This document shows positions 16,967 to 61,850 of a stretch of 64,000 nt of DNA, one piece after another (the stretch's first letter is position 1; each line of letters opens with the position of its first letter). The stretch comes from Sipunculus nudus (Eukaryota > Annelida > Sipuncula > Golfingiida > Sipunculidae). The translations under genes and the position numbers were made by a program. The notes under the pieces were generated by a model. That model made no database searches. It worked only from the letters and a program-made list of their open reading frames with translations, and had not been told where the DNA came from. The stretch is from contig CM049312.1 in NCBI GenBank assembly GCA_026874595.1, forward strand, positions 24,421,956 to 24,485,955, written 5' to 3'.

Positions 16967-17026
<60 letters not shown>

Positions 17027-17165: not shown

Positions 17166-17247
<82 letters not shown>

Positions 17248-17480: not shown

Positions 17481-17485
17481 CTCAC

Positions 17486-19569: not shown

Positions 19570-19680
19570 AAGGAACAAATAAGCTTTCGACCTTCGCAGC
19601 GAAATTCATTATCACCTTGACGAGAACAGTGTGCTCCGGGAAATGGACATCCTAACACCGGCAAACTTACATTTATTTTG
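19570..19680 (-). pseudogene. gene A exon 8: C-terminal half of SRCR
   Basis: Reads SLPVLGCPFPGAHCSRQGDN then EFRCEGRKLICSL with a strong GTGAGT donor. The expected acceptor AG, present in gene C as ttcacag, reads cttcaaaata here, and no AG gives the required phase, so splicing of this exon is probably lost. The 5' boundary given is approximate. Confidence 0.75.
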
Positions 19681-20384
19681 AAGGGAACGGACAAGTTTGA
19701 CGAAAGAAAGAGAAATATATCAAATATTACCAATCGCATTTAAGATTTGTGAAATACAAATTGTCTTCGTGAACACAGCATCAATATTTCATAAAGGATG
19801 ATTTCGTACTGTCAGCATATGTCACTCATGACGATTTGCAATCATTAATCACTGACTTTGTAATCATTTGTGTTTGCTTGCATGACATTCTTAGTTTGTT
19901 AAACCTGATTTGTTGTTTTTACATTATGGCCCTTTTTGGAATCATAAATTTTCCCCTAACAGCTTTGCACCGTCGATTGTAAATATTCTAATCTCATGTG
20001 AGACAAAGAAGGCCGTGCTGATTCGGAATGTAACAAAACATTCGAGCCTCGACAAAAATACTAGAATAAAAGCGCCTATTATAAATCACATCAGCTGGTA
20101 AAAAGGGTTGCAGACTATACAGTAGGACCTGGATATTATGACCGCTCCAAAGTAGAGTCGGGACCTGTTTACAGGTAAAAAGGTTGAGCAGTCAGCCTGA
20201 ATGCGAAAAGTCCCAAGCCGTGTTACCAAACGCATGCAACTCCACTTTTAGCTTCTAATTTTAGTTTCTTTATATTTGTGAAGCTTTAAAACGTGTACCT
20301 TTGTACATGCACTTTAAGAACAGCTGTATCAATCAAGATAATAGTCATTGGGGAATGAAATGACAGAAAAAATACATATGTCAC

Positions 20385-20571
20385 CAGTCTTGACATCGCT
20401 AAGGATAAGGAGAGTACGTCTAATTCCACTCAGTTGACGACACGCAACCTCGGTATCCAGTGAACTAAATGTTACATCGCAAACGTCCCACCATTTGTTG
20501 AACAGCAAAACTTGCAGGAGACCTTTATACTGCGTCGTACCATGGAAAATCCCACCATTTATAAGCTTAAG
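20385..20571 (-). pseudogene. gene A exon 7: N-terminal half of SRCR
   Basis: Acceptor aaatttag in phase 0, donor GTGACA in phase 1, 187 nt (gene C: 181). It encodes FHGTTQYKGLLQVL, KWWDVCDVTFSSLDTEVAC and RQLSGIRRTLLI, matching the SRCR pattern of G(r/l)(v/l)qv, a W..VCD core and (v)aCrqL. The frame is open throughout. Confidence 0.85.
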
Positions 20572-20605
20572 CTAAATTTCCGTATACTGGAGACATTGTC
20601 TGATT

Positions 20606-20652
<47 letters not shown>

Positions 20653-20723
20653 ATTGTTTTATTAATTAAAAATGATACCACAAAGCGACACAGATTAATG
20701 AGTATTTGAATTCGTAAACAGAC

Positions 20724-20851
20724 CATTGACGCCTTGTAAGAACAGGTGATCCTGACCGCATGATTTTCAGGACATAAACCTGTTCTTGCTGGACAGTGTG
20801 TCAGCCGAGCCTCGTATCCTTTACACTTTGTGCCATCGTAACCGTATTTGA
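20724..20851 (-). pseudogene. gene A exon 6: orphan C-terminal half of SRCR
   Basis: 128 nt, identical in length and phase to gene C exon 6. It encodes KYGYDGTKCKGYEARLTHC and PARTGLCPENHAVRITCSY, the C.G.E..L..C ... V.ITC end of an SRCR domain. The donor is a weak GTCTGT. No matching N-terminal half precedes it. Confidence 0.85.
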
Positions 20852-26000: not shown

Positions 26001-26350
26001 CGGTTAAAACCGCAGCAAGCTCCAACAATCAGACGAATGAAGACCATTCACACAGTCATATGGTCAGATGACAAGTTCGTGGGAACTTAAACGGCAAACC
26101 AGTTAGGGTCATGAATTCGTGCCGTCATTTGACGTATGGTCAAACGGTTTGCCTAAAAGTGCTCAACATTGGCCAAAGGACCTAAGGCCATGGTGGTCCA
26201 CTAAAGAATTTAGATCCGTAGAGGACCAGTGACATATGCAAGATCATCTTCTTATTATACCTTTAACAATGAGACGGTATGTTTTAAAGAAACTACATTA
26301 TAGTTACGCTCCCGAGGCAGCGGGAATCTTGCGCTTCGAAAGATGCAACT
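23040..26350 (+). mobile_element. Ty3/Gypsy-type LTR retrotransposon remnant
   Basis: Pieces of pol run in order on the plus strand inside gene A's intron. A reverse-transcriptase N-part at 23040-23285 has PTAEEVIRKMYGATILSKLD and FSQDIFQEKMD in a shifted frame. RT continues with an IADDI active-site word at about 24255. A connection region has ASEIEFIGMRY and FLGMVQYIAPFIP at 24360-24530. An RNase H start lies near 24690 and its end, DHSSL and PGREHHLADLLSRL, at about 25905-26010. An integrase-N-like LIIP piece lies near 26240. Between 23290 and 24215 unrelated sequence interrupts the RT. Many stops and frameshifts; no LTRs identified. Confidence 0.85.
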
Positions 26351-27640
26351 GATTTTCATGCTGCCAGCTTTGACCGTTTATGATATATTTAGACACCAGA
26401 TGGCGGTTTGTTGTCCACTGAAATAAACGTGCGTACGATGTGACAAGCAGCCAATCAGATGCCAATAAACAAACACTCGACAGGCATCTGGCTTCGCCCA
26501 TTGCCGCGCTTCAAGCGCCTCTTGATCAGTTTCCGGTCGAATTTAAACTGCTCCCTCTGCATTCTCGCATCATCGACCGATTCGATTATGACATTATAAC
26601 TGTGTTAGCGTAGCCATGTATCTGTTGTCTGCAGAACTGAAACCAGCCAGCGAGGTGTGCACGCAGCCTTTGTTGTTACGTTTCGTTTGAATTACAGCTC
26701 ACCGGCCAAGAATCCTATGTGCCCAGGGCCCTAAGCAAACCACGTTAGGGGCAATTCTCTCTGAGCCTGTGGCCTGTTCAGACGGTTACGCTGGCGGATG
26801 AGCTGTCACTCAAAAAGAAATTAATATGATTGGCTCCGTGTATCCTCGCTTGGCTTTGTCTTCCAGCACAAGGTCTCATCTGATTGGACAAAAATACAGT
26901 GTTCCCCTCTGGTGTTGCAATTCAGGATACGAGGTAATAACAAACAGCGCCTTACGATATAGGAAGTAGCCCTATAGGTAAAGCGCTGTGTAAAGAGCGT
27001 ACATTATAGTCATCAAGGTTTAAAAAAAAGAAACTGGGAGCGGAACATGTGTATACTGGAGAACATTGATAGAAACATCGAAACACAAGTTAAAGGTTGT
27101 AATATGGGTCGTAAATTTTCTCGGAAGTAAAAAAAAAACAGAGTTTGATTTCATATTGAGGCATAATTAAACATTGACACACACCCTTTGAACGACCCAG
27201 TGTAATTTGTTGTGCCGATGCTCCAAGTTACATTTAAAATATTTACACTCCTGCGACTGTGAGTGTTTACCGATTGATATTGTAAAATAGTAATTTTTTT
27301 ATCCAGTGAACGCAAAATTATTTTCTTTACCTGCAGAATCTTAATCCAAATGATGAATATTTATTCCACGATCAGATTTACACATGCTATGATTCATCAT
27401 TTCACGGCAGTTTGTTTTATACAAATGATTTTATAATCTTTTTAAACCCTTAAACACAAAGTATGCCAATATGATTCTATTTTAATGGTTCTATTTCAAT
27501 ATTATGTTAATCATGTTGGTTTGTAGAGAAAAGTTTCAGAAAACAGAAATGTATAAATCGTTTAAAATGTACTACTACAGACAATCGGTACGACACTAAC
27601 ACTCCATTCAAAATATTATCGGTTCAACCGAAAATGACAT
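26351..27640. other. intron of gene A, no recognised content
   Basis: Sequence between the Gypsy remnant and exon 4. No exon-like, repeat or RNA feature was identified; short ORFs here have no similarity. Confidence 0.5.
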
Positions 27641-27648
27641 CAACAAAC

Positions 27649-27739
27649 CCATTCTCCACTGAAATATTCAAAGCTCCCTTCTCGTCTTCGATCCTTCAGC
27701 AGAATCCAAAAGTAACTTCTAGCCAATCTCCTTACAAAG
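27649..27739 (-). pseudogene. gene A exon 4: middle of C-type lectin domain
   Basis: 91 nt, the same length as gene C exon 4, phase 2 in and 0 out. It encodes RRLARSYFWILLKDRRREG then SFEYFSGEW, the W(I)(G/L)L.D...EG.F.(Y/W)..G core of a C-type lectin fold. Acceptor catacag is fine; the donor GTTTGT is weak. Confidence 0.85.
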
Positions 27740-27992
27740 CTGTATGGGGACATATCATGTTAAAATATGAACTTTAATATCTTGGCAAATGGCAGAATAC
27801 ACTTGCTTTAGGCGCTTATGATACGGACAAAAAAAAGGACAAAAGTATTGAATCACGGGTTGTAAATATTACTAGGAAACCCAATCGATAGAAAACTGAA
27901 TCGCGCCTCTATATATGGGAAAGGTTCTTCAGAATAACGCTTAAGAAAAATCACATTGACGTAAAGTGTTATAATTAGATATCAACATTCAC

Positions 27993-28134
27993 GTGTTATG
28001 TGCGTAGTTTGGGATCCTGGCTAGGTCTGCCCCCTTCGATCGACAAACTCTGCGCGCCGATTCCCAGTTCCACGATCCATGTATATAAAGATAACAATAT
28101 CCCCTGAAGAAGCGCCAGCTTGTATTGGGACAAT
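27993..28134 (-). pseudogene. gene A exon 3: N-terminal part of C-type lectin domain
   Basis: Acceptor tttttcag in phase 1, donor GTGAAT in phase 2. It reads CPNTSWRFFRGYCYLYIHGS, WNWESARRVCRSKGADLA and RIPNYAHN: the long-form C-type lectin start C..W..F.G.CY, W..A...C...GA.LA.I. The frame is fully open. Confidence 0.9.
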
Positions 28135-28286
28135 CTGAAAAACAAAACAAATTTCAACTAAATTGCACAGATTCTGCTTTTTTATTTGCTGTTCATTCAA
28201 TGTTAATATTTACTTACAAATACTGAATATTTGATAATTCAATATACATTTATATCAAGTTAAAAAACACTTATTAATGATACTAG

Positions 28287-28308
28287 AATAATAATAATAA
28301 TAATAATT

Positions 28309-28361
<53 letters not shown>
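28287..28361. repeat. (TAA)n/(ATT)n palindromic microsatellite
   Basis: A run of TAA/AAT triplets is followed at once by ATT triplets, making a near-perfect self-complementary tract. It ends 20 bp from the donor of gene A exon 2. Confidence 0.92.
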
Positions 28362-28363
<2 letters not shown>

Positions 28364-28380
28364 TAACAATTATTTCCTAC

Positions 28381-28573
28381 TCATGTGTTTGAATCCACGT
28401 TCCGCCTTCAGTCCAGATCGATCAATTAGTGCAGCCCCTGGGCATTCTGAGATTGTAGGCTGCGTCAACGTTTGCATGTCAGAGTTACACGCATACGTCA
28501 ACGTACTGGAAGACGTACGAATGGTTCCTCGGATAAGCTCCTGTACTTTTACGAGCCGCAGGTCATCATGTCT
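28381..28573 (-). pseudogene. gene A exon 2: unrecognised N-terminal module
   Basis: Acceptor tatttacag in phase 0, donor GTAGGA in phase 1, 193 nt, open. It shares DLRL, S(S/N)STLTY.C.SD, a second Cys, GL..LKA and FKH with gene C exon 2. Only two Cys are shared, so it is not a canonical sushi domain. The signal-peptide exon expected upstream was not found up to 30 kb. Confidence 0.8.
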
Positions 28574-28599
28574 CTGTAAATAGCATCATGCCTTTTGTT

Positions 28600-35669: not shown

Positions 35670-36559
<890 letters not shown>

Positions 36560-37023
36560 CCATTCAAAGAAACTGGATTTGGCAAAATAATACCGTGTAT
36601 CTAGATTGTTCATGCAAAAATGTCATAACACAGGGCGATCGGAACTCGGATAATTTCTTTATAATTTATATTAGCCCGGCTTTCTCAATTTTAAATAAAT
36701 ATTTTTATGACACGTTCGTTAGTGCTTCAACAACGTTTATTACACAGAATATAATCAACTTAATTTTTTTTGTAAAAGTGTTTGTTAGTTTTCAATTTCC
36801 CTATTTCGCGTCTAACCATCATATTGAGAGTTTCTTAGTTGTATATTAGCCCAGTTTAGTAAAACCCCTATAGTAAAATGTTTTTTATTTCACTTTTGCG
36901 TTTGACAAACCTTTATTTCACTCCATATAAGCAACTGAAATTTCTGTGATTATTTGTTTATTAGTTTTCATCCCCACTTGATTATAATCTAAATGATAAA
37001 TATACGATTAATATATTTTTCAC

Positions 37024-37157
37024 CTTCAAATGTTAGACCTGTGTACGGCGGGTAATAAACACCATATGAACATGTACCATTCCTTATGTCACAAGAATTG
37101 CCAAGGCATGACCCGCAGGTATCAGTCAATTAGTTCCCTATGCACCGGGTCTGCATT
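37024..37157 (-). pseudogene. gene B exon 11: EGF repeat with two stops
   Basis: 134 nt against 135 in genes A and C. It reads CRPGA, stop, GTN, stop, then after a one-base loss TCGSCLGNSCDIRNGTC. The first stop is TAG at the conserved Trp, the same substitution as in gene A. Confidence 0.8.
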
Positions 37158-37797
37158 CTGTTCAAAATGATGTATTTAATGATTATAGGCGTATGATGAT
37201 ACCTGTTTTGTATTTGCTTGATGGTTATCTTTGTCATTCGTGCCTGGTATTATTTACAGAAATATGATGCCTTATATAACACGCTTTTTATTTCATTATA
37301 TAAACTGTTGTATCGGTAACGTTTATAAGTGTTTTAACTAACAAGCAGCAACCTATTTACCATTCAGAATCACATAAATTAATTTTGAAAAAGCCATTGA
37401 ATGATTTCATGTCTACCGAGAAGTAAACCATATTAATGATCCCTGATAAACATTGTTATTCATGGTGTGCATGACACAACAATTTGTTAGTGTTTTGTCG
37501 GAAAACTTGTTCGTACAAAAATTTTAAAGAACCATTATTTGCGGATGACATTTTCAAATTTTTGTGCCGAGTTAAAGAATCTTGACTTTCATGTTTTCCT
37601 ATACATGAAACATGTGATGTTTGTTTTGTATCACCAGTTTTTGTTTCTTCGAGTTATCAAGAATTGAAATATTAATACATGTTAACCATAACATGAAGTC
37701 CTAGATAAACCGAGACAGCCCATGTTGTCAAGAACGTTACCAGCATTACTTCTAATTCAATAGTTCATGAAGGCATTCTACAACGTCATTACCTTAC

Positions 37798-37925
37798 CGC
37801 ACCTCTTCCCTATGATGCCCGCCTCACACAGTCTAACTGAACCCCGTTGAGCTGGTTACAAGGCATCGTGGCACAGATGCCGTAAGATATCATACAAGTT
37901 ATCCCCGTTGTGCCGATGAACAAAC
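37798..37925 (-). pseudogene. gene B exon 10: EGF repeat, frame-broken
   Basis: Recognisable by nucleotide similarity to gene C exon 10 and by CEAGIIGKRC near its 3' end with a GTAAGG donor. Several indels and stops. Confidence 0.65.
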
Positions 37926-38516
37926 TTCTTTGGTTATGATAGATTGATAGCCGTAAAATTGTATTGTCAAGTATCAAAAGCCCGATGAAAACCTACCTGT
38001 GCTTTTTATCTCTCATTTAATATTTCATTGAATTTATGCAAAAAGAGAAAACTCTGATGCTTATAATCAAGAATAGTATTCACTGAGTAATATAAATCAG
38101 GTATTTCACGGAATTATATGTATTATCAGTTTTCTTTTAATTCCTCTTTATTTCAACATTTAAGGTAATTGCCAGACAACGAACAAACTATTTCCTATCG
38201 GGCAGATATATCACCCGTAAGTTAAATTGAATTATATTCTTACCATTTCTGTCTTCGTTTTTGAGTAAACTTAAGAAACCCTGTCGGTCTCAGGACAATC
38301 ATTTTAGTTTACATCAAGAACGTATGTCACTCCAGGTCCCACTTAAGTTATCCACTGAACAAGACTGTGTCTTTGTGTCAGGACATCAAACGCTTTATTT
38401 CTTCTTTTATGGCTAAACCAGGTTTAATGCAAAGGAGGTGATTTTATAAAAAAAAGTAATAATATGAAAAGGAAGAAACATGGCAGCATGCTTACCAAAT
38501 TTGTAATTATACCCAC

Positions 38517-38632
38517 CATGGAACAGTAAAATCTACGATCTATGCAGCGGAATTTACTTTCTCATGTCGAGAACTTTTTTGTTCCTGACTGACTCGACGA
38601 CCGACATCCTAACTCCGCCAAACTGAAGTTTT
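38517..38632 (-). pseudogene. gene B exon 8: C-terminal half of SRCR
   Basis: Acceptor ttcgtag; reads FSLAELGCRSSSQSG then a stop, and after a frame change FRCIDRRFYCSM with a GTGGGT donor. Its first 25 nt and acceptor are repeated in inverted orientation just upstream (38608-38685). Confidence 0.75.
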
Positions 38633-38685
38633 CTACGAAGGAACAAATATTATTTCGTAGAAAACTTCAGTTTGGCGGAGTTAGG
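38608..38685. repeat. perfect 32-bp inverted repeat (hairpin) at gene B exon 8
   Basis: Arms 38608-38639 and 38654-38685 are exact reverse complements around a 14-bp spacer. The left arm is the 5' end of exon 8 with its acceptor; the right arm is an inverted duplicate. Confidence 0.95.
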
Positions 38686-38969
38686 AACAAATACTACTTA
38701 AACTATATCCATACTATATGTGCATGTCCATATATAAGAACATGTACGTTGTTGTCAATAAGAAGTAATAAACAGGACTTGCACATAGCCATATCGGTCT
38801 CTCTTTGAAAAGTCCATATACAATTTCACAAAAGAAAAAAATATAAATATTGTTTCTATATTACGTGTGAATTTTATTTGGCAGGTAATTGGTTTGGTTA
38901 TCATATGTTTACCTTACCATTGAACAAGAAATCAAGTAATGCCAAACCTGCTCATAGTATAGTGAATCT

Positions 38970-39160
38970 GTCTCTGGTTGGTTATTTCTTGCATATGCAT
39001 TATGTGGCTGGTTTATGCTTGTCAGCTTACCATATCGTACCCGAGTTAACTCTGAACCAAACTCAATGTAACACACATAGCGCCATTTGTCGTCATCCCA
39101 CATTTGCAAAAGCCCCTTGTACTGCGTCGTACGGTTAAATAAAGCTGACCCTTCATTGTA
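38970..39160 (-). pseudogene. gene B exon 7: N-terminal half of SRCR
   Basis: Open frame with FNRTTQYKGLLQMWDDDKWR, YVCYIEFGSE. The SRCR VCD is VCY and the A-C-x-Q-L motif is lost. No clear in-phase acceptor; boundaries approximate. Confidence 0.75.
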
Positions 39161-39224
39161 TATATGATTCATTTGATAAAATATGTAGATATACACATAT
39201 TTATTATACATATATATATATGTT

Positions 39225-39500
39225 GAACTAACCCGAGACCACTTATAGATAAAACCAATCCTGATGGTGTAGTTTCAGATATATGGGCATTTTTTTCTCT
39301 TCCCATAGCAGCAAGTCACGTTCAAGTGTACTTTTGATTTATATTTTCAAGTTATTTTTAACCAAAATGTTCTATTGAAAGCTGTAACCTTTATTATCCA
39401 ATTGGTAAATTATCATTAGCGTTAGTTCAAGCAATTCATTAAAAGGTTTGCATATCATTAACTCAATGAATGGTGACATTTATAATGCCTTCTCAATAAT
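39225..39500. repeat. left copy of a duplication flanking the inserted 3.1-kb block
   Basis: This segment matches 42345-42745 (shared words tattgaaagctgtaacct, ttggtaaattatcattagcg, catagcaacaagc/catagcagcaagt). It includes a stub of the exon 6 3' end (ccgagaccac; aatcctgatgg). The block between the copies is segmental-duplication copy 2. Confidence 0.8.
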
Positions 39501-39539
39501 GTGTCCCGTTAATAGGTAAAGTCTGCTTGGCTTTTACCC

Positions 39540-39787
39540 CCAGCCTAATGGCTCATCAGGCCGGAGCTTATACCGCATTCGGTAGCGTGAAGCAACTTAG
39601 GAGTTAAACTCCCTTGGATGGGACGCTTATCCATCAGACGTTACCTTTCAAAGTACAGAGGCACACTTGCTGTTGGGACCTTGCCTATAAGGGTCTTGGC
39701 ACGGTGGGGGTTTTAACGGGATTCGAACTCACGACCTCTCGATCATGAGCCCGCCACCTTAACTATTACACCACCGCCCCCGCCCCA
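39540..39787 (-). repeat. tRNA-derived SINE, copy 2 (A and B boxes present)
   Basis: On the minus strand, TGGTGTAATAG (39773-39763) fits the A-box consensus TRGYNNANNNG exactly, and AGTTCGAATCC (39730-39720) fits the B box with one mismatch. They head a body containing the common ggatgggacgct..tccatc and ggtcttggcacggtg words. Confidence 0.85.
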
Positions 39788-39913
39788 CCGTGTCCCGTTA
39801 ATACTTGGCCGAATAAATTAGGTGACTAAATGTCACAAGCTCTGGAATGTTAACTTAAATAAGATTTAATGTTATGCCACTGGCTGCCTTTGCCGTGAAA
39901 TATACATCTTCCA

Positions 39914-40208
39914 GGTGTCATTGAATCGGAAACAACACATCAGCATGTTATTAAATGGGGAACAATACACCAGCATGTTATTAAATAGCTATCAACACAT
40001 CTACATGTTATTAAACGGGAACAAACACACCAGTATGTTATTAAATGGGAAACAACACATCAGCATGTTATCAAATAGCAAACAACACACCAGCATGTTA
40101 TTAAATAGCTAACAACACAGCTGCATGTTATTAAATGGGGAAAAAACACACCAGTATGTTATTAAATGGGAAACAACACACCAGCATGTTTTTAAATGGG
40201 AAACATCA
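39914..40208. repeat. 30-bp minisatellite, ~10 copies
   Basis: Same unit as 31388-31800 at the syntenic place in copy 2, with fewer units and a few single-base length changes. Confidence 0.93.
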
Positions 40209-42352
40209 CAGCAATAACTTTACCTCCGCAAGGGTTTATTCCTGACCTGAATCGTTTTGGCTTGTTTCATAAAAAAATTGCACATTTTGACACTGTGTGA
40301 ACTGACCTTACCATGAACTATACGTGAGCTTAATAGTATATTCAATGAATGAATAATTATATGTAGATCAGTTGAGACCAACCAATCAGGTTACTGGTTG
40401 TAATTAAAACAGTCAAACTCCTGACAATCACAAGAGTGACATATAATTTTGGCGACTTTCCCAAAATCAACAACCTCTACTAACATCTGCAGGCTGTACC
40501 AATACCCGTGCCCGCATGTTTATTTAATCAGGCATACTTCTTATACAAAGGACACAGTATAAAACGTTCCCTGAAAGAGAATAATAATGAGATAAATTGG
40601 CCCTGTGTATAGGACAAAACGGCCAACCCGTTCAGTGAAAGTACTAGGATTTGCAGAAAATTAAACAGTGACAATCTATGCTTTCATTAATAGCTCTTCT
40701 AAAATTGCAAGCTCGACATTTCCAATTTTTGTTAGCTTATACAAATTAGTTTTTATTTATATTTTTTGTCTGAAATTCGAGAAGACTAAATCACCGACTT
40801 TATGCAATGTTGAGGAGCGTAGCCCCCTAGTTCGATCGTAGTTTCTGTTATATTGTATCCAGTGTAGATGAATATTTCAGTTTTTTCAGGTGCGTCGTTT
40901 ATCACAGGATTTTCGAAGTATGTATTTCTTTTAACTCGTTGCCAACATTTTTTTTAAAATAATCAACGTTTTGAGCATTGGTTGTATAAGAATATTTTCG
41001 TAAACGTATGACGCAGATACGAGTATGTTAAATCATTTGTTATTTTGAGTAAATTTGTTTATATTATAAAATTACCAGCTAGGGCTCTCTGCTAGTACAC
41101 TGTTACCATAGAAACTATCTACTTGCTTGGCCGTGACCACCAAACATAATGCAGGTACCATCCATTGGGCAAACATGATCTATCGACCACTGAAGAATTA
41201 TCTGTGCCTCAAAGTGCCAGCTGGTTGATAGACTGTTGTTCCTGGAATGCACGCTGCATAATTGGACCAAGGACTCAGACCAGGCATGATTATAGTTTGT
41301 AGACGTATAATTGTGTTCTGTTTGTTTTTTTTCATGGTACATTATTTCATTTTTATCCGGTGTTATCATGGACGTCAATCTATTCATATTTAAACAGGTT
41401 GTCATTACTCTGCCGTGTGCACGTCTCTTGGCAGAACTAAAATTGTATGTTTAATTACTTTGTGTTTATTTCTCTGTATTAAAATTATTAGATTTGTGCT
41501 CCGTTCATGCTTGACATTTATTGACGAATCTTTTGTATATTTTTACGTTCTTCCTATATTCGAATGGAATACACATTTCGGGAAATGAAAAAGACTCAAC
41601 AGCATGTATTGGTTGAATTACACCAACGTGCGAACCTTTTTAAAAGTTGGACGTGAGATTTATTCTTCTTACTGATTGACGTGTTATTGTGTAAAAGGAA
41701 AGCTGGTATTTTGATTGTATTTTAGTGAGACCTGTCTCTGTTTCTTCAAATGTTTCCAGGAGAGATAATATCCCATTTACAAAATCGCACGCATCACAGT
41801 CTTCTTAAGTTTCTGCAATTTGGCATGCATTGGCCCCCGCCAGGATTCCTTTATCCAACTCACCTGTTTTTATGTAGATCATTAACATTCAGCAAGAAGC
41901 TTCAGTTGTGAGCGTTATTCAATGAAAAGGGCCATAGGAATACAGTTCCAAACATTGTTAAACACAAAGCCTATTTAATGATTGAACAAAATGTCTGATC
42001 TTATACAAATGTGACACTTAAACAACAAGGTTTCCTTGTTTGCTGTGCAAGATAAAGGGCTGGAAATTAAAATAAAATAAGGCGTCCATTTTATGCTTTA
42101 TCTCGCAAGGGTGCGAAGCTATTTAGAACAAAACATAATTTCTTGCCATTAAAGCAATATACTGTTTGCGGGAAAACCTATGTAATTCTGGCCTAAAATA
42201 GCAATATATTCGAATGACCAGGCAATATAACTAAATATTATGTTTATGAATGGAGAAAGAACTTGCATTAAAAAAGAACTCCGATGATTGTGACCGCCTC
42301 CTAATCAGTAACAATGATTTGGGTGGCCTTTGCTAAGAGATCTTGGACAAAC

Positions 42353-42457
42353 CTGAGACCACAACTAATCCTGATGGCGTAGACATCTAGACACAGGCCT
42401 GTTCGGACAGTCGAACCACGTTTTCATTACAGCTAGTCGCATCAGGAGCATACCTGT
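42353..42457 (-). pseudogene. gene B exon 6: orphan SRCR half
   Basis: Acceptor ctttacag; reads RYAPDATSCNENVVRLS, then frame is lost. 105 nt against 128 in genes A and C. Donor CAG/GTTTGT is retained. Confidence 0.75.
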
Positions 42458-42819
42458 CTGTAAAGTATCATATAAGTATTTGTTATTTAGCCTATACCAT
42501 GCAACAAATTCACTATTGTTTTCGAAATCATTGGTACTTTTTTTCTTTTCCCATAGCAACAAGCTACATTCAATTGTATTTTTGGTTTATATTTTCAATT
42601 TATTGTAAAATCTAGTTTTCTATTGAAAGCTGTAACCTTCATTATCCATTTGGTAAATTATCATTAGCGTTAGTTCTCCCCCTTCCTCAAAAGCTTTGTT
42701 AATCATTAATTCAACGAATGGTCACATTAATTATGCCATCTTAAGGAACTGATCATATAGTATAAAGATGAGACATAAAAAAATGCTAGCATCCACTAAT
42801 CAAATCTACATTGCTTATC

Positions 42820-42954
42820 AAACACAAGGTGGATAATTTTGTGCGAGAACATGTTATTGTTCCATACACCCGTTTCATGGTCGACATCAACACATTCTTC
42901 GTCAAGGAAAATTCCATAGCTTTGCTCCAAATATTTTCATTTAGTATAATAAGG
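42820..42954 (-). pseudogene. gene B exon 5: C-terminal part of C-type lectin domain
   Basis: Acceptor ggtag; reads PYYTK, stop (TGA for Trp), KYLEQSYGIFLDEECVDVDH then ETGVWNNNMF. EPN has become EQS and WND has become WNN, so calcium-dependent sugar binding would be lost even without the stop. Confidence 0.8.
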
Positions 42955-51989: not shown

Positions 51990-52080
51990 CTAAAAGTCCC
52001 AATTTTTTCGAGGCATACTGGACATTGGGTGAATTGTGGCAGATGACATCATCCTCAGATCAGCTCCATAATTATAAAGC
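51990..52080 (-). CDS. gene C exon 14: cytoplasmic tail and stop
   Basis: Acceptor aaacttcag, phase 2 in. Encodes RLYNYGADLRMMSSATIHPM and ends ..NWDF with TAG at 51992-51990. Homologous to gene A exon 14 in RLY(N/D)xGxxLR. Two Tyr, no ITIM consensus. Confidence 0.8.
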
Positions 52081-55000
52081 CTGAAGTTTAAAAATATCCG
52101 GATGTGTTATGGTATACTTCAATTGGTTACTTTCTGACGGCTTATATAAGTAAGATCAATTATATTAGTGAAAAGAAATATTTTATGAGGTTAAATGTGA
52201 AACTTCTTTTACATAAGTATATACAATATAGTGATTGCTGACAGAAATATCAGTCTTTATGTTTAAATGCCCCACGTTTTATCGTAGTCATGAGAGATAT
52301 GAATAAACACCTTTAATTCCGACTGTTAAACAAGAAATGTAGGTAAAGTTCTAACCGCTTTCTCCAATACAGCCACTGTGCAACAAAGATGATGCAGCCA
52401 AACTCAAAGATGAAGAGGCAGGAGATGAGCATCGCGAGGTCCGATCCAGTCATAGGACAGTCAAGCATCAGCTGCGGAGCTAGTCCTCTACGAGGGGCGG
52501 TGCAAGAACAAGGCGGACAGTCCCGTTGTTTACACAGCGTAGTTACTGAAGGAATAAAAAAGCGATGACACTCGGTGTAGAAAACATGATTTGTCTGTTA
52601 CCCAAAAAAAAACCCTGATAGCTTACATTTTCATAGAAAAATGTAGCGCGGCACAAAGAAACCGACACATTTATAGTGCAGTTCATTCTGTTGTTACACT
52701 ACAAGCACGATCGCTGTGGGTTTTACCTTTGTCACACATCGGCCCTGTATAGCCATGGTAACACATATTGTCAGGACAACTGCCATCATCACGGTCACAT
52801 GAAATATTCTCACATCGCCCACACCGATTTGAACAGTCATTTCCCCAGAATCCCGAAGCACAGTCTATTGACAAAAAGCACATTTAAAAAAATGTCTATT
52901 AACTTATTGTATCCAGATAATTGATTATTAAATAAGCCTAAATATATGAGGTATGGAGCTCATTTTTCTTTTATAATCGATTTTAAATTTCAAAATGGTG
53001 TATATATATGCTCGAAATCAGTTCATTTTTAGTATATTCAAAGGTTGGATAGAATGGCAATTCATCTATTCGTCTTCAGTCAAGTGGTATGTGTGCAAGA
53101 AAATCAAAGTAAAAAAAAAAAAAAAAAAAAAAACAGAACACAAAATTGTACGATACGCATATGACACGGTATTGATTCTTACTGGAAGCCATCGGTCTGT
53201 TAATGAAGCATTGTTAACTTTTACTGATTTCAAAGAAATTTCTGGTCTCAAGTTAATCTTGAGAAATCAATTATAATACCAATAACAGAGGATACAAAAC
53301 AACATGAAAGGATAAAAAACTCAGGTTTACAATGGTGAACAGAATCAATTAAACTTTTAGGAATTAATATATATCCTAATTGGGGAAAAGTAACAGAAAT
53401 TAATTACAAAGAGATCCTTAGTAAAATGAAAGTGATTGTTAATATATGGACTGGAAGAACATCAACCCTGTCTGGTAGAATAACAATAATAAACCTTTTT
53501 CACATATGCAAAATTAATCAAAGAAAAGAGATTACTTTTAAACTATATAGAATATTTAAGTATAATAGACTCTAATCCTGCAACATGGAAGTGGATTATT
53601 AAAAGGACAAATGAAGAATTATGCGTAGTAGAAAATAAGGAAGAAAAGCTTGTAAAGATGAAAAAGATCTCACTAGAAATTTGTGGCGAATTGATTCGAA
53701 AAGTATTCAAAGAACCTTAAAAATATAATCCAGATATGGAGATAGGACAGAATTTGATTGTCATAATATACATTTATAGCATTTGGACACATAGAAAAAA
53801 ATCAAAATTTCAGAGAAACTGAGAGATTTTGAGTTCAAACTAATATATAGAATTTTGCCTTTAAATCCATTCTTATATAAACTAAATAAAAAGTATTACT
53901 GAAAAATGTCCATTATGTTCCAAAACCAAAGAAACGTATGGTCAATTATATTTTGAATGCAAAATAACTAAAACATTACTGAAGGAATTTAAAGAATGGT
54001 TAGAACTAGAAAAAGTCAATATAGACAATTTTAATCTTACCATGTCAACAGTGCTGTCTAACGTTAACGGAATGCCACTCACAGATATGATAATACTATT
54101 GTTAAAAATATATATGGATGTGTAGTTGTAAAAATATTTTGCCTATATTTCATTCTTTTAAATAATATGTTAAGCAAATATACCTTATTGAAGAAGATAT
54201 TCAGTCACAAGAGGAATAGGATTATTTGTAACTAGACTGAACTGGATAAAATACATATGTGTATATGTGTGTACATGTGTATGTGTGTGTGCACACATAT
54301 GTGTATATGTTTAAACGTTTGGGAATTCTATATACTTCAGTTTGGGTACCATTCACATATATTTCTTGCCTCATGTATGTACATAATGTTTGTGGACAAG
54401 TGTTGTTTTGTTATGTGTGGTATTATGAATTTTCTGTTGAATCGATAAAAAAAAAACTGATATGTGTGCATCTGAGTATAAGTGTCCAGGTTATTTGCAT
54501 TTCTAGACAACGTTATTCCGTGGGTTCTTCACCTTTACAAGTTGTTCCTGCGTATCCCGGACGACAATCCCCTGAAAGACATGTTCCATTCTTTCTGTCA
54601 CACGCACTGCCAAGACATGACTCGCAGGTATTCAAGCAATTAGGTCCCCATTTACCAGGTTGGCACTCTATTCAAATGGAAGAATTGAATTTGAACAGAA
54701 GCATGGTCATTTTCCTTTATAGTTAGAGGATTATGACTATTTTCGTTCCCTTTGAATTACCCAAACATCACCCCCTAACTGTTGAACGGGATTACACCGT
54801 TTGTAATGAATCATCAGGAATAATATAAAACATAGCCTGGAACCTCACTTAATTAAAATTGTACCAGCGTATGCAGTAGGACCTAAAAACCATGCACACC
54901 ATTATTATTCTAAGGTGTATAGGGTATTCTCCAGTATTATTACCTGCATCACACCTTTCTCCCATTAAGCCCGTCTCACAAAGTCCATTCACCGGTGAGA

Positions 55001-58000
55001 TGGTTGCAAGGCACCGTGGCACAGATTGCCTGAGATTCCGTGCAGGCCTTCCCCCATCTCCCCGGTGAACATGCTGGTTTTATTGTAGGAGGAATATGGT
55101 CATCAAATAAAAAATATTAAAATGTTATAATTAAAAAAAAACAATACAGACAAACCCATTTCCTCCATTGAAAATTCTTGCTTAAGTATATTGATACATA
55201 CACAGTATAGGCCTCTTTAGACTTTTGCTTCCCAGTAGATATCGTCTGTATATTAAGGCCTGGGCGGCTGAGCGGTAAAACGCACGGTCTTCTCCGCTGG
55301 CGACCCGGATTCGATCCAAGGTGCTGCCATGAGAATGAGTTGTAGTGGCCCGTCCACGGTAAGTGGTTTTCGCCGGGTTCTCCGGCTTCATCCACCTCTC
55401 TCACTACGATCTTCAACTCTATCAGTGTCTTCTACTTTCGCCTTTAATATCTAACTGTAAAACCGACTCAATCTGTCAAACTTTGTCGTTGCTGAGGGAG
55501 GCAGTGCGGCCGGATTTTCCTGGAGACCTGTAACTAGCTCGAGCGCAGACTTCACTTTCAGTCAGTCAGTCATTGTTTCTATATTGATATATTATTTAAG
55601 AATTGTATTTATGTGGAGCACTTGGTGATCAACAAAATCCCAAATTATTACACTTCAAGGCGAAACTCTCAAATTAAAATATTTTGTCCAAAAAAGAATC
55701 GGGAGATTATTGACATTCGTCAAGTTCACAAAATAAATTTTTAAAAATGAAGACATATCTTTGCTATTTTCTTAAACATTTCTCACCTTGTTCGTGCGAT
55801 GCACCATCGGAAAAGACCTTAGAGACCTGAGAAGGCGTGTCAACTTTAGGACAAATATGGTCCTTGCACGATGTGTATAGGTCTCTGCTTATGTCACCAG
55901 AGTGATCCATCGAGCGTGATTTTGTCTGGGTATGAAGAAAGGAAACGTTGAGGATTCCTTTACGATTCCAATATATGATTTTTAATGTGAAGCCAACCAA
56001 TGCGTTCAAATGCCGAAATACAAAGTAAAATTGTCGGCAGTTTTACGGATACCCACCGTAGAGCAGTATAATTTACGATCTCTGCAGAGTATTTCACTCT
56101 CACCATGACGAAAACATTGTGTCAATGACTCACTCGGACAGCGTAACTCCGCCAGACTGACCCATCCTGTGAAAGAGTAAGTAATGCTACAGACAAATTG
56201 CCATTTCCGTAGCCTTATTTGAATAAAACTAGTATTGAAGGTAAACGCCTTAAAAGCGGGAAAAAAATTAAAATTTTTGGCATTTTAGTTAATCCACACA
56301 AGACATCTTAAAGAGAAAATCAAATGTTATTTCTTCTGATATTGATCTTCAAATGACGCTTCTGCCACCTTAATGTATTTTATATTGAAAAAAGGTTCGC
56401 ATTTTGTTATATTTCAAATGCCAAGTTTAAACATTTTGCTTCATTTTAACGGTCAGGTACCTGCTTGAACCTCTGGCTTGTATTAAATTTATTTGACAAA
56501 ACACGCAATACTGGTTGACAATACCCAAATAGAGCGAGCAGACAACTATCAATCGGAGTGCGCATGCTCGTGGAATAGCTATACACTTATATTATACCGA
56601 CGTCAACTGGTTTGGTTTATCTTATCTTCATCCTTTCATTGTATACGATATCATGTAACTCAAAAACTGTTCAAAGTGAAAATAATTTATCTCACCAGTT
56701 CGCATATCATTATATATGAGAAGTGGTTGGGTGATGCCATTCAGCTGACTACATGCTACTTGTGTTTCTTTCAAGCCGAAATGCATGTCACACACAAAGC
56801 GCCATTTACCCTCATCCCATACTTGCAAGAGCCCTTGATACTGCGTCGTTCCGTGAAATGACTGCCCATCCAGTGTCTACAAAGAATACATACAATTTGT
56901 TGTATAAGACTTGCATAAATCTTGTCTACAGTAACAGTTGATGAAATGATCGACGACCTAAACAATTGAGTACTAAGTATTACTTTCACGAACCTGAGAC
57001 CACGAATAGGCGCAGGTGATCTGTACCACGTGGTCATGTGGACAGAGGCCTGATCTTGAGGAGCAGTCAGAGAGCCGAGCCTCGTTTCCAGTACATCTGG
57101 TCTCATTGTAACCATATCTGTCTGTACAGTTGTACAGTTTCACACAAATGGTCGTTGGTTATTCAACAAATATTATGCAATAGTTAACACAAGTAAAACC
57201 TGATTAGTGAACAAATAGCTGCTTATATAAATAAAATAGTTCAACTTTACGTTCAACTTTATTTTTGGCATAAGTGTTTTTTTCCATTAATGTTATTAGT
57301 TAATAAATGAAAGGGATGTCCAGTGTAAGCTGTAATTTTGTTTATTCAATAGGTGATAAATTTTAGGCTTTAGTTATGTCTGCGCATTGCAGGGTTCTTT
57401 ACAATCTATTCATATTATATAGACATAAAGCTATCAAATTCTACAATACTGTTTACTGACTCACCGCTTCTCATGGAACACATTGAGGTCTGTGTTCTAG
57501 AACACATGTCATCGTTCCATTCACCTGTTTCATAGTCGACTTCAACACAGTCTTCGTTTAGGATGACGCCATTGTTCGGCTCAAATAATTTCCATTTGGT
57601 AAATTTAGGCTACAAGCAATTTTTCAAACCAGTAAGAAAATGTCTTTAATAATATATTCAGATGGTATGCCCGTGTTAAACACCTTTGTTGGCCTAAAAA
57701 TGAACCCCATCGTGTAAATCACCAGAAAAATTCGTATAAATAACCCATTTAACGTTGTTAACGTAACTTTAGTCTTCTCATGGAACATTTTATTTAGATT
57801 TTGGTAGAAGATGTTACGGTTTTAGTATGGACCATTTATAATGGATGCACAGCGAACTATAAGGACTGCATACATTGTTCATAACTTCAATCATTTATGG
57901 TTGTCTCATAAATTATTTATTTTGCATTTGGGTTATGGAGGCTGTTATAATATTAAATATGAACAGTAAAGATATTTGATATTATCAAATACATTACTTA

Positions 58001-60567
58001 GTAGCATTTGACTTATTAGTAAATGGACTGATATAAACATTAGAATACTAATATTGATGTAACTCGACTGCTCGTTTGATAAACTCTATATTTTGAATTA
58101 AGAGTTATGGATGCTTATATGATATGAATATGAAAAAGACATTTAATGTAACGACACAGTAATAAAATATATAGATCTGAATTGATGCAAACTCATTCTA
58201 GTTATTTAAACAATTTTGCGTAGAACATAATTGCCTGAATATTTCTATAATATTCCAATTAAAATATAATAATTGAACCAAACAATAGTAACATCACGTG
58301 ATCTCACTCTTTCGCCAAAGGCATATTCAAATGTTCCTTCTTTTCTTTGGTCGTTTAACAAGATCCAAAAGTCATAGCTTGCCAATCCATAAACGAATCT
58401 GGAATTAATAAATAATACATGTACCCACTCGGAACAGATGTCTCAGACGTTTTAATTAGAATAATCTTTATAAGCATCCCATTTCAGTAAATCATCAAAA
58501 TTAAAAGGAAAATTGCATTTTTTTTATTTTACAGTTTGAGTCTGTAGTACATATAACTTTCGTAAAAATAATGTACATGAAAATAAAAGTTTTATCCAAT
58601 AATAAATACCAAATAAATCTATCATTTTAGGTGCCGTCGGTGAGATCAAAGTTTGAAATCTTTTTATAATGTACTCTCAAATGTTTGAAAACAAAAATAG
58701 TCTGAGGAGGAATACACATCCAGTACCGCACTCATTGACGAATCATCATCACCCAGTATAATAAATATGGAGTATAGAATTAACAAAGTGCAAACGATAT
58801 GGTGCAGGCATTCACGTCTCTTAAATATAATACTAGTTCATATTCAAATAGGCTATATGTATTCATACATGTGTATGTATATTCGTTTTTTTATACCTAT
58901 TATGGGCATTGTCTGGAATGCGTGCCAGATCCCCTCCAAGATATTTACAAAGAGTGCGGGAATCTTTCCAGTTCCTCTTAGAAGCAATATAGTGATAACA
59001 ATACCCCTTGAAGAAGTGCCAACCAAGGGGACAATCTGAAATGATGTAATATTAACTATCATGAGGAGGTATTTAAAAAAGTTCGCTCTGCGCTTTGGCT
59101 TAGATAAAAGAAGAATATAGATTTTACCGTCATGTATATGTTCATGTAGTGTTTTACTGTTAAATATGATATTAGATTTGCAAATCAAACACGACTAATA
59201 AAGTGTGTCGCAACAGGACGCTTACATTTATTTGGGACTCATGTGCAGGCGTACACTACGTTTCTCTACATCAAATTTAAATACTTGTACTTTGGACAGA
59301 AAAAATGCAGATGGGCCGTTCGCCAACACATCTGTTGGAATATTCCTTTCTCGAGAAAACATCAGATAAATCGTTAAAGGTCGCTGATTAGTAATCTCAC
59401 TTTAATCTAGGTCCAAAGCACAGTCCCATTAGAGTATGTCAAACAATGTTTGTCACAAAATCAATTAACTTTAAGACAAAGCAATTTGATGTCATTTTTG
59501 TCACAAAATTTAAACAACTTACAAAATTCAGGAAATTTAATGCAGGTAAGCATGGTGGTGTTCGCTATCCTATTGCGTCGTATTTTCAGAAGCACCATAA
59601 GTAGTTTAATTTTAATTTAAATTAAATCGAAAATATTACTCGAATGTTTAAAGCTTCCTTCGAACTTGGTTGCTTTGAGATCCCTCAGACCAGTCGGTTC
59701 ACATCCTGACGGTACAATTGATTCTACATCCGAGTCACAGATATAGGTCAAGGTCGAGTTTGTAGAAACTCTCGACCCCCAGGTAACCTCATGCGCATTT
59801 GTAAGTCGTAGATCACCAGCCCTCTCCTAAGTAATTCAACAATAGGCAAGACCTTACACGAGTTCCTTCTTGAAGAAAAACTAAACATTTATTCATTTTA
59901 TCGTACCCGGTAATTTGCTTTTTTATGAGACAGTGAAAGTAATTCTAAGGTCGCATTTAACTATGTTAATGCCCTTTCATTCTCAGATTGAAGCGTACGA
60001 TACTGTGCCTATCGTTCAGTACCCAGCGGAGCTCGTGTCTGCATATCGAATGAGGGGAGATTAGCCACATGACCCTGGTAAGCAAGTTACTAGACATAAC
60101 GAATGAATATGGTGTCATCGTAGAGAATTTACCAATTTTTTTAAATGTCTATACTCCTATGTTCATACTTTATAATGGCTATTCAGTGTGAGTCAAGCAA
60201 CGTGAAATCTCTTTATATTCGGTCATGGATATGACCTTAATAGATGGTGATTGGATTTAGCTGAAATCTTAAAGGGTTCTATGTAATAGATTGGGCAACA
60301 GATACTCATAAATGTTTAAAAGCAAGGGAAGAGAAAGGACTTAATAATTTTTATCAAAAGCAGCTTATGTTTTATGATAAAACTCAGACAAATATAAAGT
60401 ATTAAGTACGCTGCATAATTCTCGTCTGGTAATAATATTTGGTTTGAAATTAATTTTAATAATATGACGCTGAACACTTTCTAGTTTTATATTCTTATCG
60501 TACAAAACACTCTTACCGCTTCAGCCCGCACCGTAAGCAACGAAAGTATCGTCCACATGGGAATCAT
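51990..60567 (-). CDS. gene C: C-type lectin/SRCR/EGF transmembrane receptor
   Basis: Fourteen exons join with consistent phases (0,1,2,0,1,0,1,0,1,1,1,1,2 at successive junctions). They predict a type I membrane protein of about 618 residues if one missing base in exon 10 is allowed for. Order by residue: signal peptide 1-17; unrecognised module 18-79; C-type lectin domain ~80-204 with EPN, NED and WND calcium/mannose motifs; orphan SRCR C-half ~205-247; SRCR 248-344; linker 345-390; three EGF/laminin-type repeats ~391-525; stalk and transmembrane helix ~526-588; short tail. By analogy with C-type lectin and SRCR families it is likely a cell-surface recognition or scavenger-type receptor; ligand and pathway are unknown. 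Introns hold a LINE remnant and a SINE. All GT-AG splice sites were found by eye. The frameshift means it may be an allele, an assembly error or a young pseudogene. Confidence 0.85.
52356..52545 (-). CDS. gene C exon 13: stalk and transmembrane helix
   Basis: Acceptor attccttcag, phase 1 in; donor GTTAGA, phase 2 out. A Cys-rich stalk (CKQRDCPPCSC) leads to SDLAMLISCLFIFEFGCIIF then VAQWLYWRKR, a single helix followed by basic residues, giving type I topology. A Glu lies within the helix. Confidence 0.88.
52727..52864 (-). CDS. gene C exon 12: third EGF/laminin-type repeat
   Basis: Acceptor caatag, donor GTAAAA, phase 1 both sides. Reads DCASGFWGNDCSNRCGRC, ENISCDRDDGSCP, MCYHGYTGPMC: all eight Cys of the MEGF/scavenger-receptor type repeat. 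Confidence 0.9.
53109..54125 (+). pseudogene. non-LTR retrotransposon (LINE) reverse-transcriptase C-terminus
   Basis: After an A-rich run (53109-53132), frame-shifting pieces appear in order: YAYDTVLILTGSHRSV (the RT ADD box with D-to-Y style change), KEISGLKLN-like text, ESIKLLGINIYPNWGKV, KVIVNIWTGRTSTLSGRI, then a C-terminal FKLIYRILPLNPFLYKLN, CP.CS.....YGQL.FEC-like zinc knuckle. This layout fits L1/Tx1-type LINEs. Lies in gene C's intron between exons 11 and 12. Confidence 0.8.
54533..54667 (-). CDS. gene C exon 11: second EGF/laminin-type repeat
   Basis: 135 nt, phase 1 both sides, acceptor tgaatag, donor GTGAAG. Reads ECQPGKWGPNCLNTCESC, LGSACDRKNGTC, GDCRPGYAGTTCK. All Cys and the PGxWGxNC Trp are intact, unlike genes A and B. 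Confidence 0.9.
54944..55074 (-). CDS. gene C exon 10: first EGF/laminin-type repeat, one-base deletion
   Basis: Acceptor aaaaccag, donor GTAATA. Reads ACSPGRWGKACTESQAIC and PCNHLTGE in the incoming frame, then NGLCETGLMGERCD in the next one. At 131 nt the exon is one short of the 132 nt needed to meet exon 11 in phase 1, so a base is missing near the LTGE word. Confidence 0.8.
55250..55510 (+). repeat. tRNA-derived SINE
   Basis: The head cctgggcggctgagcgg and gacccggattcgatcc resemble tRNA A- and B-box regions, followed by a body shared with 30310-30480. It lies in gene C's intron 9. Confidence 0.7.
55787..55925 (-). CDS. gene C exon 9: linker
   Basis: Acceptor catacccag, phase 0 in; donor GTGAGA, phase 1 out. 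46 codons: DHSGDISRDLYTSCKDHICP, then a Ser/Val/Lys-rich stretch. Equivalent by position to gene A exon 9. No domain recognised. Confidence 0.75.
56057..56166 (-). CDS. gene C exon 8: C-terminal half of SRCR
   Basis: Acceptor ttcacag, donor GTGGGT. Reads WVSLAELRCPSESLTQCF and ILCRDRKLYC; completes the SRCR begun in exon 7. Confidence 0.85.
56696..56876 (-). CDS. gene C exon 7: N-terminal half of SRCR
   Basis: Acceptor ctttgtag, phase 0; donor GTGAGA, phase 1. Reads FHGTTQYQGLLQVWDEGKWR, FVCDMHFGLKETQVAC, SQLNGITQPL, a clear SRCR start (G.LQV...G.W..VCD..F....A.VAC.QL). Confidence 0.9.
56994..57121 (-). CDS. gene C exon 6: orphan C-terminal half of SRCR
   Basis: Acceptor ctgtacag, phase 1 in; donor GTTCGT, phase 0 out. 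Reads RYGYNETRCTGNEARLSDC, SSRSGLCPHDHVVQITC: the end of an SRCR domain. It follows directly after the lectin exons, with no N-terminal SRCR half between 57121 and 57465. Confidence 0.88.
57465..57609 (-). CDS. gene C exon 5: C-type lectin domain end with EPN/WND
   Basis: Acceptor cttgtag, phase 0; donor GTGAGT, phase 1. Reads FTKWKLFEPNNGVILNEDC, VEVDYETGEWNDDMCSR, TSMCSM. EPN, NED and WND are the calcium-site-2 residues that in studied lectins give mannose-type binding; three Cys complete the domain's disulphides. Confidence 0.92.
58308..58398 (-). CDS. gene C exon 4: middle of C-type lectin domain
   Basis: 91 nt, acceptor attccag, donor GTGAGA, phase 2 in and 0 out. Reads FVYGLASYDFWILLNDQRKE then GTFEYAFGE. 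Confidence 0.9.
58897..59035 (-). CDS. gene C exon 3: start of C-type lectin domain
   Basis: Acceptor catcatttcag, phase 1; donor GTATAA, phase 2. Reads CPLGWHFFKGYCYHY, NWKDSRTLCKYLGGDLARIP: long-form lectin start with the extra N-terminal Cys pair. Confidence 0.92.
59640..59826 (-). CDS. gene C exon 2: unrecognised N-terminal module
   Basis: Acceptor gaattacttag, phase 0; donor GTAATA, phase 1; 187 nt. Reads ERAGDLRLTNAHEVTWGSR, STNSTLTYICDSDVES, a second Cys in SGCEPTG, then LKATKFEGSFKH. Conserved with gene A exon 2. Two Cys only; no known domain. Confidence 0.82.
60517..60567 (-). CDS. gene C exon 1: signal peptide
   Basis: ATG at 60567-60565 encodes MIPMWTILSLLTVRAEA followed directly by donor GTAAGA in phase 0, matching exon 2. 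The hydrophobic core and AEA end fit a cleavable signal peptide. The start is chosen because it gives the signal and the exact phase; no clear TATA box was seen upstream. Confidence 0.75.
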
Positions 60568-61850
60568 GATGTTTAGAAAATATCGTGGGAGTCTTCGTAG
60601 GGGGACCCTTTGTTTGGGACGGAGGCCATCATTTATTTGTATTTCCCATAGAGTTCCTCATGTATATCAATAAGTTATTCGCCCCATTGTTTGTTTTTTT
60701 TTTTCATCTCTTCCAGCCAGGTTAGCTGAGGTAAAGTTTACCAGATCACCGTGGATGAGCTGTATATCAGAGTTATTTTACAACCTCGTAAAACTATCTG
60801 ACACTATCCTTAAATAAAGAAAGACGTTATATTTGATTTCCTTTGATAATTACGGACATACAAGATACTTAATGAATTAAAATGACACAAAACGTTGAGA
60901 AGACCAGAGGTGTGAACTGTGGCTTAGGACTTTTTATATTTAATCTTTTTAACCTCGAAGTTTGAGGAAAGCTTTGTCAGATGTAATTAATAACCAGAAA
61001 TTAAAAAAACTAAACTTGATATTATGTACCTACTTTTAGTTAACAAATTATTTCCTTTTTTAACCATTGTACTATTGTCAGTAAATGTATTCCGAATCAT
61101 TAATTGTTATTAAGAGTTTAATAAATAGAATAACACTTTACTATGGATATGTCAGCAAATAAGACAGCTATCTTACATCCACGGATTGTTAAATTTATTC
61201 ATATTTAGTCTTATCTGAATTACTGAATTTTTACATGTTAAAGCATATATTGATGTCGTTTTACAGATAATTTACTTTATAAATTAATCAGTAGATATAA
61301 TATTTATATGATCTGAATATCTGAAAACAGAATCCAAATGCCCATGCAAGAAACAATTAATTCATCTAAAATGATACGCGCACTGCCATTCCGGAACGTC
61401 GTTTTTTTGTTCAGTATATGATTGAAACCGAAGAATAATAAATGCCTCGTGCGTACTAATCTCTGAATATAAATGCGGTGAATGTAGGACACTAGGAAAC
61501 AACTACACAAACTCAAGCTGGTGCTCTCATGTGATTCCTCGCACGAATGGCTCCAGAACTATTTGACCGAAAAGAATTAATGAACCGAAGTACTTTCCTT
61601 TCTTCTCATATCTAGTCTAACTTTAATGAACCTTGCTTAATAGATCACCCGTGAATCTGATACCGAAAATCAGTTTATATAAAAAACCTAGAGAATGGTC
61701 CTTGTGCTGTGAATACGCTATAGAGCAAAAGATCAAATTTTGAAGGAGCTGAACTTATTAAATTTTATTTGACATTAAGAATGGTTTCTTGAATCACCGA
61801 TCATGCATCCAATTCGGTTTGTGTGAACGCGGATTCATGTCCTTCCCACC
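60568..61850. other. presumed 5' flank of gene C, nothing else recognised
   Basis: AT-rich sequence upstream of the signal-peptide exon. No TATA or initiator could be chosen confidently. The minus ORF at 61304-61516 is unrecognised. Confidence 0.4.

Follow-up and report, generated by a model that had tools for sequence, protein, structure and literature searches.

Does a series of short minus-strand exons in a 64,000-nucleotide stretch of Sipunculus nudus DNA (G000:C7:24421956-24485955; the whole stretch analysed is called the window below) encode a membrane receptor, of what kind would it be, and is this copy of the gene intact? A preliminary description had read in these exons a complete 14-exon model of a single-pass receptor with a C-type lectin domain (CTLD), a scavenger receptor cysteine-rich (SRCR) domain and three EGF repeats. 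We consider it probable that the window gene belongs to a family of single-pass membrane receptors, a reading based on sequence features: exon order, phases, domains, recurrence of the layout elsewhere and in decayed neighbours, and an 8-nt lesion in exon 10. The predicted protein would carry, in this order, a start peptide, a two-cysteine module, one CTLD, an SRCR C-terminal half (C-half), an N-terminal half (N-half) and a second C-half, a linker, EGF repeats resembling those of stabilins and class F scavenger receptors (SR-F), a transmembrane helix and a short tail.

Exon chain, domains and paralogues

With both strands inspected, and with GT-AG borders and phase as the splicing criteria, a chain of 14 minus-strand exons was found to run from an ATG at 60567 to a TAG ending at 51990, every intron being GT-AG (Table 1). 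The identical end coordinates make it very likely that this is the chain described before. The claimed agreement of phases is borne out at 13 of 13 junctions, giving 592 amino acids without an internal stop, on condition that exon 10 is shortened to a donor at 54993. The chain is open and its coordinates are right, but to call this copy "complete" is mistaken, or unsafe at best, as 8 nt are deleted from exon 10. Exon 14 is unsupported. Few pyrimidines precede its acceptor and its partner donor is weak (gttaga), this last intron being the weakest of the chain; a comparable tail was seen neither in the rest of the window nor downstream of the decayed paralogue copy A, and loci L042-L044 gave no credible one. 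Without exon 14, the frame of exon 13 can continue to a TAA at 52313. Exon 13 has counterparts in copy A, L042 and L043, and in copy A the homologous exon still ends in a good donor (gtaagt), which favours an additional exon.

The domain-profile check proposed for the spliced product has been passed. In a Pfam run on a 558-residue splice, with exon 10 omitted and exon 13 extended to the TAA, matches were obtained to Lectin_C (1.8e-17, 64.5 bits, profile positions 2-106 of 107), SRCR (2.8e-13, 50.5 bits) and EGF_STAB1-2 (3.6e-6, 27.7 bits, narrowly above the cut-off of 27). By sequence matches to PDB entries, residues 80-203 correspond to C-type mannose receptor 2 and residues 214-339 to CD163, and a clear transmembrane helix (hydropathy 2.57) lies near the C-terminus. 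A single-exon scan covered ten open frames (exons 2-8 and 10-12): the frames around exons 5 (Lectin_C, 7.2e-5), 7 (SRCR, 2.7e-7) and 11 (EGF_STAB1-2, 4.9e-6, marginally) exceeded the Pfam cut-offs, exons 3, 4, 6 and 12 gave sub-threshold matches only (for exon 6 alone, SRCR at 20.3 bits), and the frames around exons 2, 8 and 10 had no Pfam match individually. Modules related to exon 2 occur in copy A, in L040 and at 8 of the 15 loci L024-L038; its reading as a degenerate sushi domain was dropped, with no Pfam support in three versions. Both motifs ascribed to the lectin domain, EPN and WND, can be read in exon 5. The eight-cysteine EGF type (class F/stabilin) is present in exons 11 and 12, and the first repeat is incomplete because exon 10 lacks 8 nt, leaving two full EGF repeats in place of the three announced. 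Likewise, the SRCR profile matches, but the region is not one plain SRCR domain; two C-halves surround one N-half. Because the chain exists and recurs, the proposed receptor type combining lectin, SRCR, EGF and transmembrane parts is supported, with the EGF count and the completeness of this copy amended.

A genome search listed 81 places, many of which hold a lectin exon only, and scored only the best candidates; five loci were followed with longer stretches, on contigs C1, C6 (twice), C17 and C4. The domain order from the exon-2 module to the transmembrane exon is present at three of the five and partial on C17 and C4. On C1 (L040, L042), the exon-2 module is followed by lectin, C-half, N-half, second C-half, five EGF repeats and the start of the transmembrane exon; with the window gene's phases as a constraint, a script located acceptor/donor pairs for all 12 exons tried, although exon 8 and EGF repeats 1 and 2 fit poorly and exon 2 has two possible donors. 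Both C6 loci (L030 with L046, L032 with L047) repeat this order, with four EGF repeats in the first and five in the second, followed by a hydrophobic frame recognised by eye, to which the transmembrane query gave no match. C17 (L039, L044) carries two lectin domains, a C-half and N-half in one open frame, a second C-half and four EGF repeats; neither the exon-2 module nor the transmembrane exon was found in its stretches. On C4 (L041, L043) the series extends from the C-half through the transmembrane exon, with a degenerate first EGF repeat; these stretches exclude the lectin part, and the genome search lists a stop-containing lectin exon nearby. In L039, L040, L041 and L047 the second C-half was recognised by eye among the open frames; in L046 it was identified by a match (6.7e-4). 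L040 and the first of the two lectin domains of L039 also contain EPN and WND. The possibility that lectin and half-SRCR are fused in one exon in a paralogue was ruled out, the two being separate exons in L040. Together, these putative lectin-SRCR-EGF receptors are a recurring family scattered in the genome.

Table 1. Positions within the window of the predicted exons, the decayed paralogues and the repeated unit
Feature	Position	Strand	Content
Exon 1	60517..60567	-	Start codon and short hydrophobic stretch MIPMWTILSLLTVRAEA; donor gtaag; also present in upstream repeats D and E
Exon 2	59640..59826	-	N-terminal two-cysteine module (GDLRL..Y.C), no Pfam match
Exon 3	58897..59035	-	C-type lectin domain, first part
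Exon 4	58308..58398	-	C-type lectin domain, middle part
Exon 5	57465..57609	-	C-type lectin domain, last part, with EPN and WND; contains tandem-duplication breakpoint at 57579
Exon 6	56994..57121	-	Canonical SRCR C-half; no N-half precedes
Exon 7	56696..56876	-	SRCR N-half
Exon 8	56057..56166	-	Second, diverged SRCR C-half; four cysteines
Exon 9	55787..55925	-	Linker; weak similarity to copy A (E 0.012)
Exon 10	54944..55073 (or to 54993)	-	First EGF repeat, with 8-nt deletion
Exon 11	54533..54667	-	EGF repeat, stabilin type
Exon 12	52727..52864	-	EGF repeat; resembles exon 11
Exon 13	52313..52545	-	Cysteine-rich stub and transmembrane helix; to TAA 52313, or weak donor after 52356 (gttaga)
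Exon 14	51990..52053	-	Short tail MMSSATIHPMSSMPRKNWDF, TAG; weak splice sites
Copy A	14893..28576	-	Decayed paralogue; fragments of exons 2-4, 6-11 and 13 (exon 9 only at E 0.012)
Copy B	36471..42954	-	Decayed paralogue; fragments of exons 5-8 and 10-12, broken by stops and shifts
Tandem unit, window part	57579..61332	.	Repeated upstream of the gene, outside the window; 5' exons only

Coding status of the window copy

Whether the window copy (copy C) itself makes a receptor depends on exon 10. In an alignment with the repeats selected as its counterparts in copies A and B, L039, L040 and L041, exon 10 lacks 8 nt relative to copy A, L039, L040 and L041, and copy B is 4 nt short at the same place. 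The frame in which exon 10 is entered differs from the frame of its homologous donor. Because of the missing 8 nt, use of the donor at 54944, the position used by the relatives, breaks the frame, with stops from residue 423; hence the frame is not open with the splice sites of the relatives. The internal donor CCG|GTGAAT at 54993 leaves exon 10 in phase 1 and restores the frame, and skipping of exon 10 also preserves it because both introns next to the exon are in phase 1. Whatever the splicing, the first EGF repeat is missing or incomplete, and only with a shortened or skipped exon 10 would the window copy encode a full receptor.

These observations bear on the strongest rival, to which we give slightly less than an even chance: the window copy is a young pseudogene, its function ended by the exon 10 deletion and the duplication of its 5' half, and only paralogues elsewhere are active. 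The lesion and the stops from the homologous donor agree with this, as do the weakening of the exon 13 donor to gttaga, compared with gtaagt in copy A, and the broken state of both neighbouring copies. On the other side, the remaining exons are open with GT-AG borders, and exon 10 offers the two in-frame ways out just described.

The neighbouring copies were found by searching the window with the exon peptides, which revealed two further minus-strand series, copies A and B, colinear with the window gene, with E-values down to ~1e-19. In copy A, exon 11 is interrupted by a stop, a 1-nt shift in exon 10 and the loss of the exon 8 acceptor are visible by eye, and exons 5 and 12 were not found in this search; copy C is the least damaged of the three. 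Between A and C, the ratio of the proportions of nonsynonymous and synonymous differences (pN/pS) is 0.47 (bootstrap 0.40-0.54) over 444 codons, with 160, 129 and 226 differences at codon positions 1, 2 and 3; between B and C it is 0.52 (0.42-0.66) over 226 codons, both ratios standing without a neutral control. The A-C ratio and codon-position pattern speak for past protein constraint. Copies A (17487-17621) and B (37022-37158) have a TAG in common at an exon 11 codon that is TGG in C, which may reflect a common broken ancestor, gene conversion or recurrence. Beyond the right end of the window lie two more copies of the 5' half, each comprising exons 1-4 and the opening codons of exon 5: over 3754 bp copy D (G000:C7:24485947-24489699) matches C at 99.97% identity, and copy E does so at 98.7% over 3763 bp, the unit breaking within exon 5. 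The tandem arrangement may have arisen by duplication very recently, or it may be an artefact of the assembly. A fortuitous string of unrelated open frames, as the shortness of most exons and their weakness taken singly might suggest, is refuted as an explanation of the exon chain because paralogous exons recur in the same order and strand, colinear in the window and again at other loci, and its probability is negligible.

Several points weigh against the family reading itself. The inferred signal peptide of exon 1 has only a weak hydropathy peak (best N-terminal 19-residue value 0.59), and the exon is found in none of the five followed loci; beyond the window gene it occurs only in the upstream repeats D and E. 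L040 yielded no linker exon. No EPN can be made out by eye in the second of the two lectin domains of L039, where WNL stands instead of WND, and therefore sugar binding would not be constant across the family. The exact 8-nt deletion of exon 10 is absent from all five compared relatives, and the window copy, given this deletion and its pseudogene-like neighbours, may yield no receptor.

Other elements lie in and around these copies. Intron 11 holds plus-strand frames at 52977-54125 that resemble a decayed reverse transcriptase, the one frame scanned having no Pfam match. Remains of a DDE_1/Tc5-type DNA transposase (Pfam DDE_1, 3.7e-24) are found at 3228-3854. Tandem repeats of 30 bp occur at 31329-31868 and 39856-40275, with flanks common to both sites, one of the arrays sitting in an open frame of 136 amino acids made of ten-residue units, and long-unit repeats occur at 34-5694 and 46020-48090 (units of ~372 bp and ~340 bp). 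A short repeat at 55325-55394 and 30344-30413 (78.6% identity) resembles, by eye, a tRNA-derived short interspersed element; ARAGORN found no tRNA in the window, this repeat included, and an Rfam scan of the window at the gathering threshold gave no match. Outside the window, locus L045 (G000:C7:25354501-25360500) has minus-strand open frames at 807-2132, 2562-3710 and 4581-5300, two of them encoding C-type lectin domains and the other matching CARD. Several dozen genome-search matches on many contigs have near-equal scores and open frames of ~360-440 amino acids; reading L045 alone, we infer that they are copies of one L045-like element, which looks mobile or viral.

The order of the SRCR half-domains

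The SRCR region of the window gene raises a question of its own, as the canonical C-half (exon 6) precedes the sole N-half (exon 7) and a second C-half (exon 8) follows. With hand-cut borders, the N-half was joined to either C-half and scored against the SRCR profile in six members. In the window copy, the N-half reaches 55.9 bits with the upstream C-half (profile positions 2-99 of 100) and 40.9 bits with the downstream one (2-91). The corresponding upstream and downstream values are 46.6 and 28.0 bits in copy A, 58.2 and 42.2 in L039, 65.5 and 41.9 in L040, 58.2 and 36.3 in L041, and 54.8 and 27.0 in L047/L032, the upstream pairing being superior by 15 to 28 bits in all six members. Against the sequence of the CD163 structure, the upstream joining scores 132 bits and the downstream joining 79 over the whole chain, and 37.0 and 22.2 bits with the best single domain. 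The upstream half is also the best conserved among five members, with mean pairwise identities of 57% for exon 6, 49% for exon 7 and 34% for exon 8. No credible N-half was found ahead of exon 6 at any of five loci (best E 0.35, chance-like).

Tentatively, and as a proposal we regard as on balance unlikely, the SRCR domain could be circularly permuted or partner-swapped, such that the upstream C-half folds with the N-half and the downstream C-half, freed, diverges. One paralogue, L039, holds the C-half and N-half in a single open frame, for which a structure prediction was uninformative (mean predicted local distance difference test score, pLDDT, 43.6). An ancestry from two SRCR domains, the first of which lost its N-half, would leave the same sequence pattern. 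Alternatively, the N-half may pair plainly with the C-half that follows it in genomic order, the upstream half being a spare; exon 8 opens with the canonical strand motif correctly placed and aligns with CD163 in genomic order, both of which count against permutation despite the higher scores of the upstream joining. If the permuted or partner-swapped domain is real, it would be a conserved rearrangement of the SRCR fold.

Predicted role and comparison with known systems

As a member of this receptor family, the window gene product would reside in the plasma membrane, where the lectin domain would bind mannose-type sugars through the EPN/WND calcium site, the SRCR region would contribute binding of polyanions or proteins, and the EGF repeats would serve as a stalk. 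No signalling motif was recognised by eye in the short tail, and therefore the receptor would act by capture and uptake or via a partner. From the domains, a role in sugar-binding recognition is likely, and the family probably recognises microbes or food particles. It is possible, though on balance less likely, that the family serves reproduction, adhesion or feeding and not defence. Lectin, SRCR and EGF domains are typical of recognition receptors, which counts against this alternative; the immune role is, for its part, drawn from domain names. The lectin domain of the crab protein SpBark is reported to bind lipopolysaccharide and to help bacterial clearance, again in favour of defence (PMC6716108). 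In favour of other roles, the same source describes Bark as acting in epithelial adhesion and at septate junctions (PMC6716108), and the nearest published snail protein, Littorina SRCR-OP, was found in the oviduct (PMC8614816), which speaks against an immune role.

How, then, does the window gene compare with known systems? The nearest solved relatives of its lectin domain by sequence belong to the mannose receptor family (MRC2, CD206), whose members have several lectin domains together with FnII and ricin-type domains and no SRCR. The SRCR region is nearest, among solved structures, to the class I scavenger receptor (SR-I) CD163; CD163 has tandem complete SRCR domains, whereas the window gene has one N-half between two C-halves, in addition to the lectin and EGF parts. 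Stabilin, SR-F and MEGF-type receptors have the same type of EGF repeat (Pfam EGF_STAB1-2) in large numbers, in contrast to the three repeats, one incomplete, of the window gene.

The combination of CTLD and SRCR in one protein is already in print for Bark/SpBark (PMC6716108) and Littorina SRCR-OP (PMC8614816), so that the description of the receptor type as new holds for the order CTLD-SRCR-EGF-transmembrane, which was not found in the open-access literature searched, and not for the pairing as such. Bark/Anakonda and SpBark are type I transmembrane proteins, as the window gene product may be, and share with it SRCR domains and one CTLD; SpBark is reported to have three SRCR domains followed by the CTLD, to be ~320 kDa in size and to have no EPN or WND, and its lectin domain has been demonstrated to bind lipopolysaccharide and microbes (PMC6716108). 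Unlike SpBark as there described, the window gene is lectin-first, with EPN and WND, a half-SRCR arrangement, an EGF stalk and 592 amino acids. Orthology with Bark/Anakonda, which SRCR and CTLD within one single-pass protein might suggest, is contradicted by this domain order and size and by the motifs, and is rejected as highly improbable. Littorina SRCR-OP resembles the window gene product in its SRCR domains and in a CTLD, the latter known from L. fabalis and L. arcana; it differs in having TSP1 and two SRCR domains and in being putatively secreted, it was found in the oviduct, and EGF is not mentioned in the available text (PMC8614816).

The family appears to be in turnover, with full-order members on other contigs and, at this locus, copies in decay and an apparent 5'-half duplication of very recent date. 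If the copies are functional, variation in the number of lectin and EGF modules would be a simple means of diversifying receptors in the absence of adaptive immunity. As predicted here, the lectin-first CTLD-SRCR-EGF layout is an addition to the known mosaic receptors of invertebrates, for the testing of which several paralogues are available.

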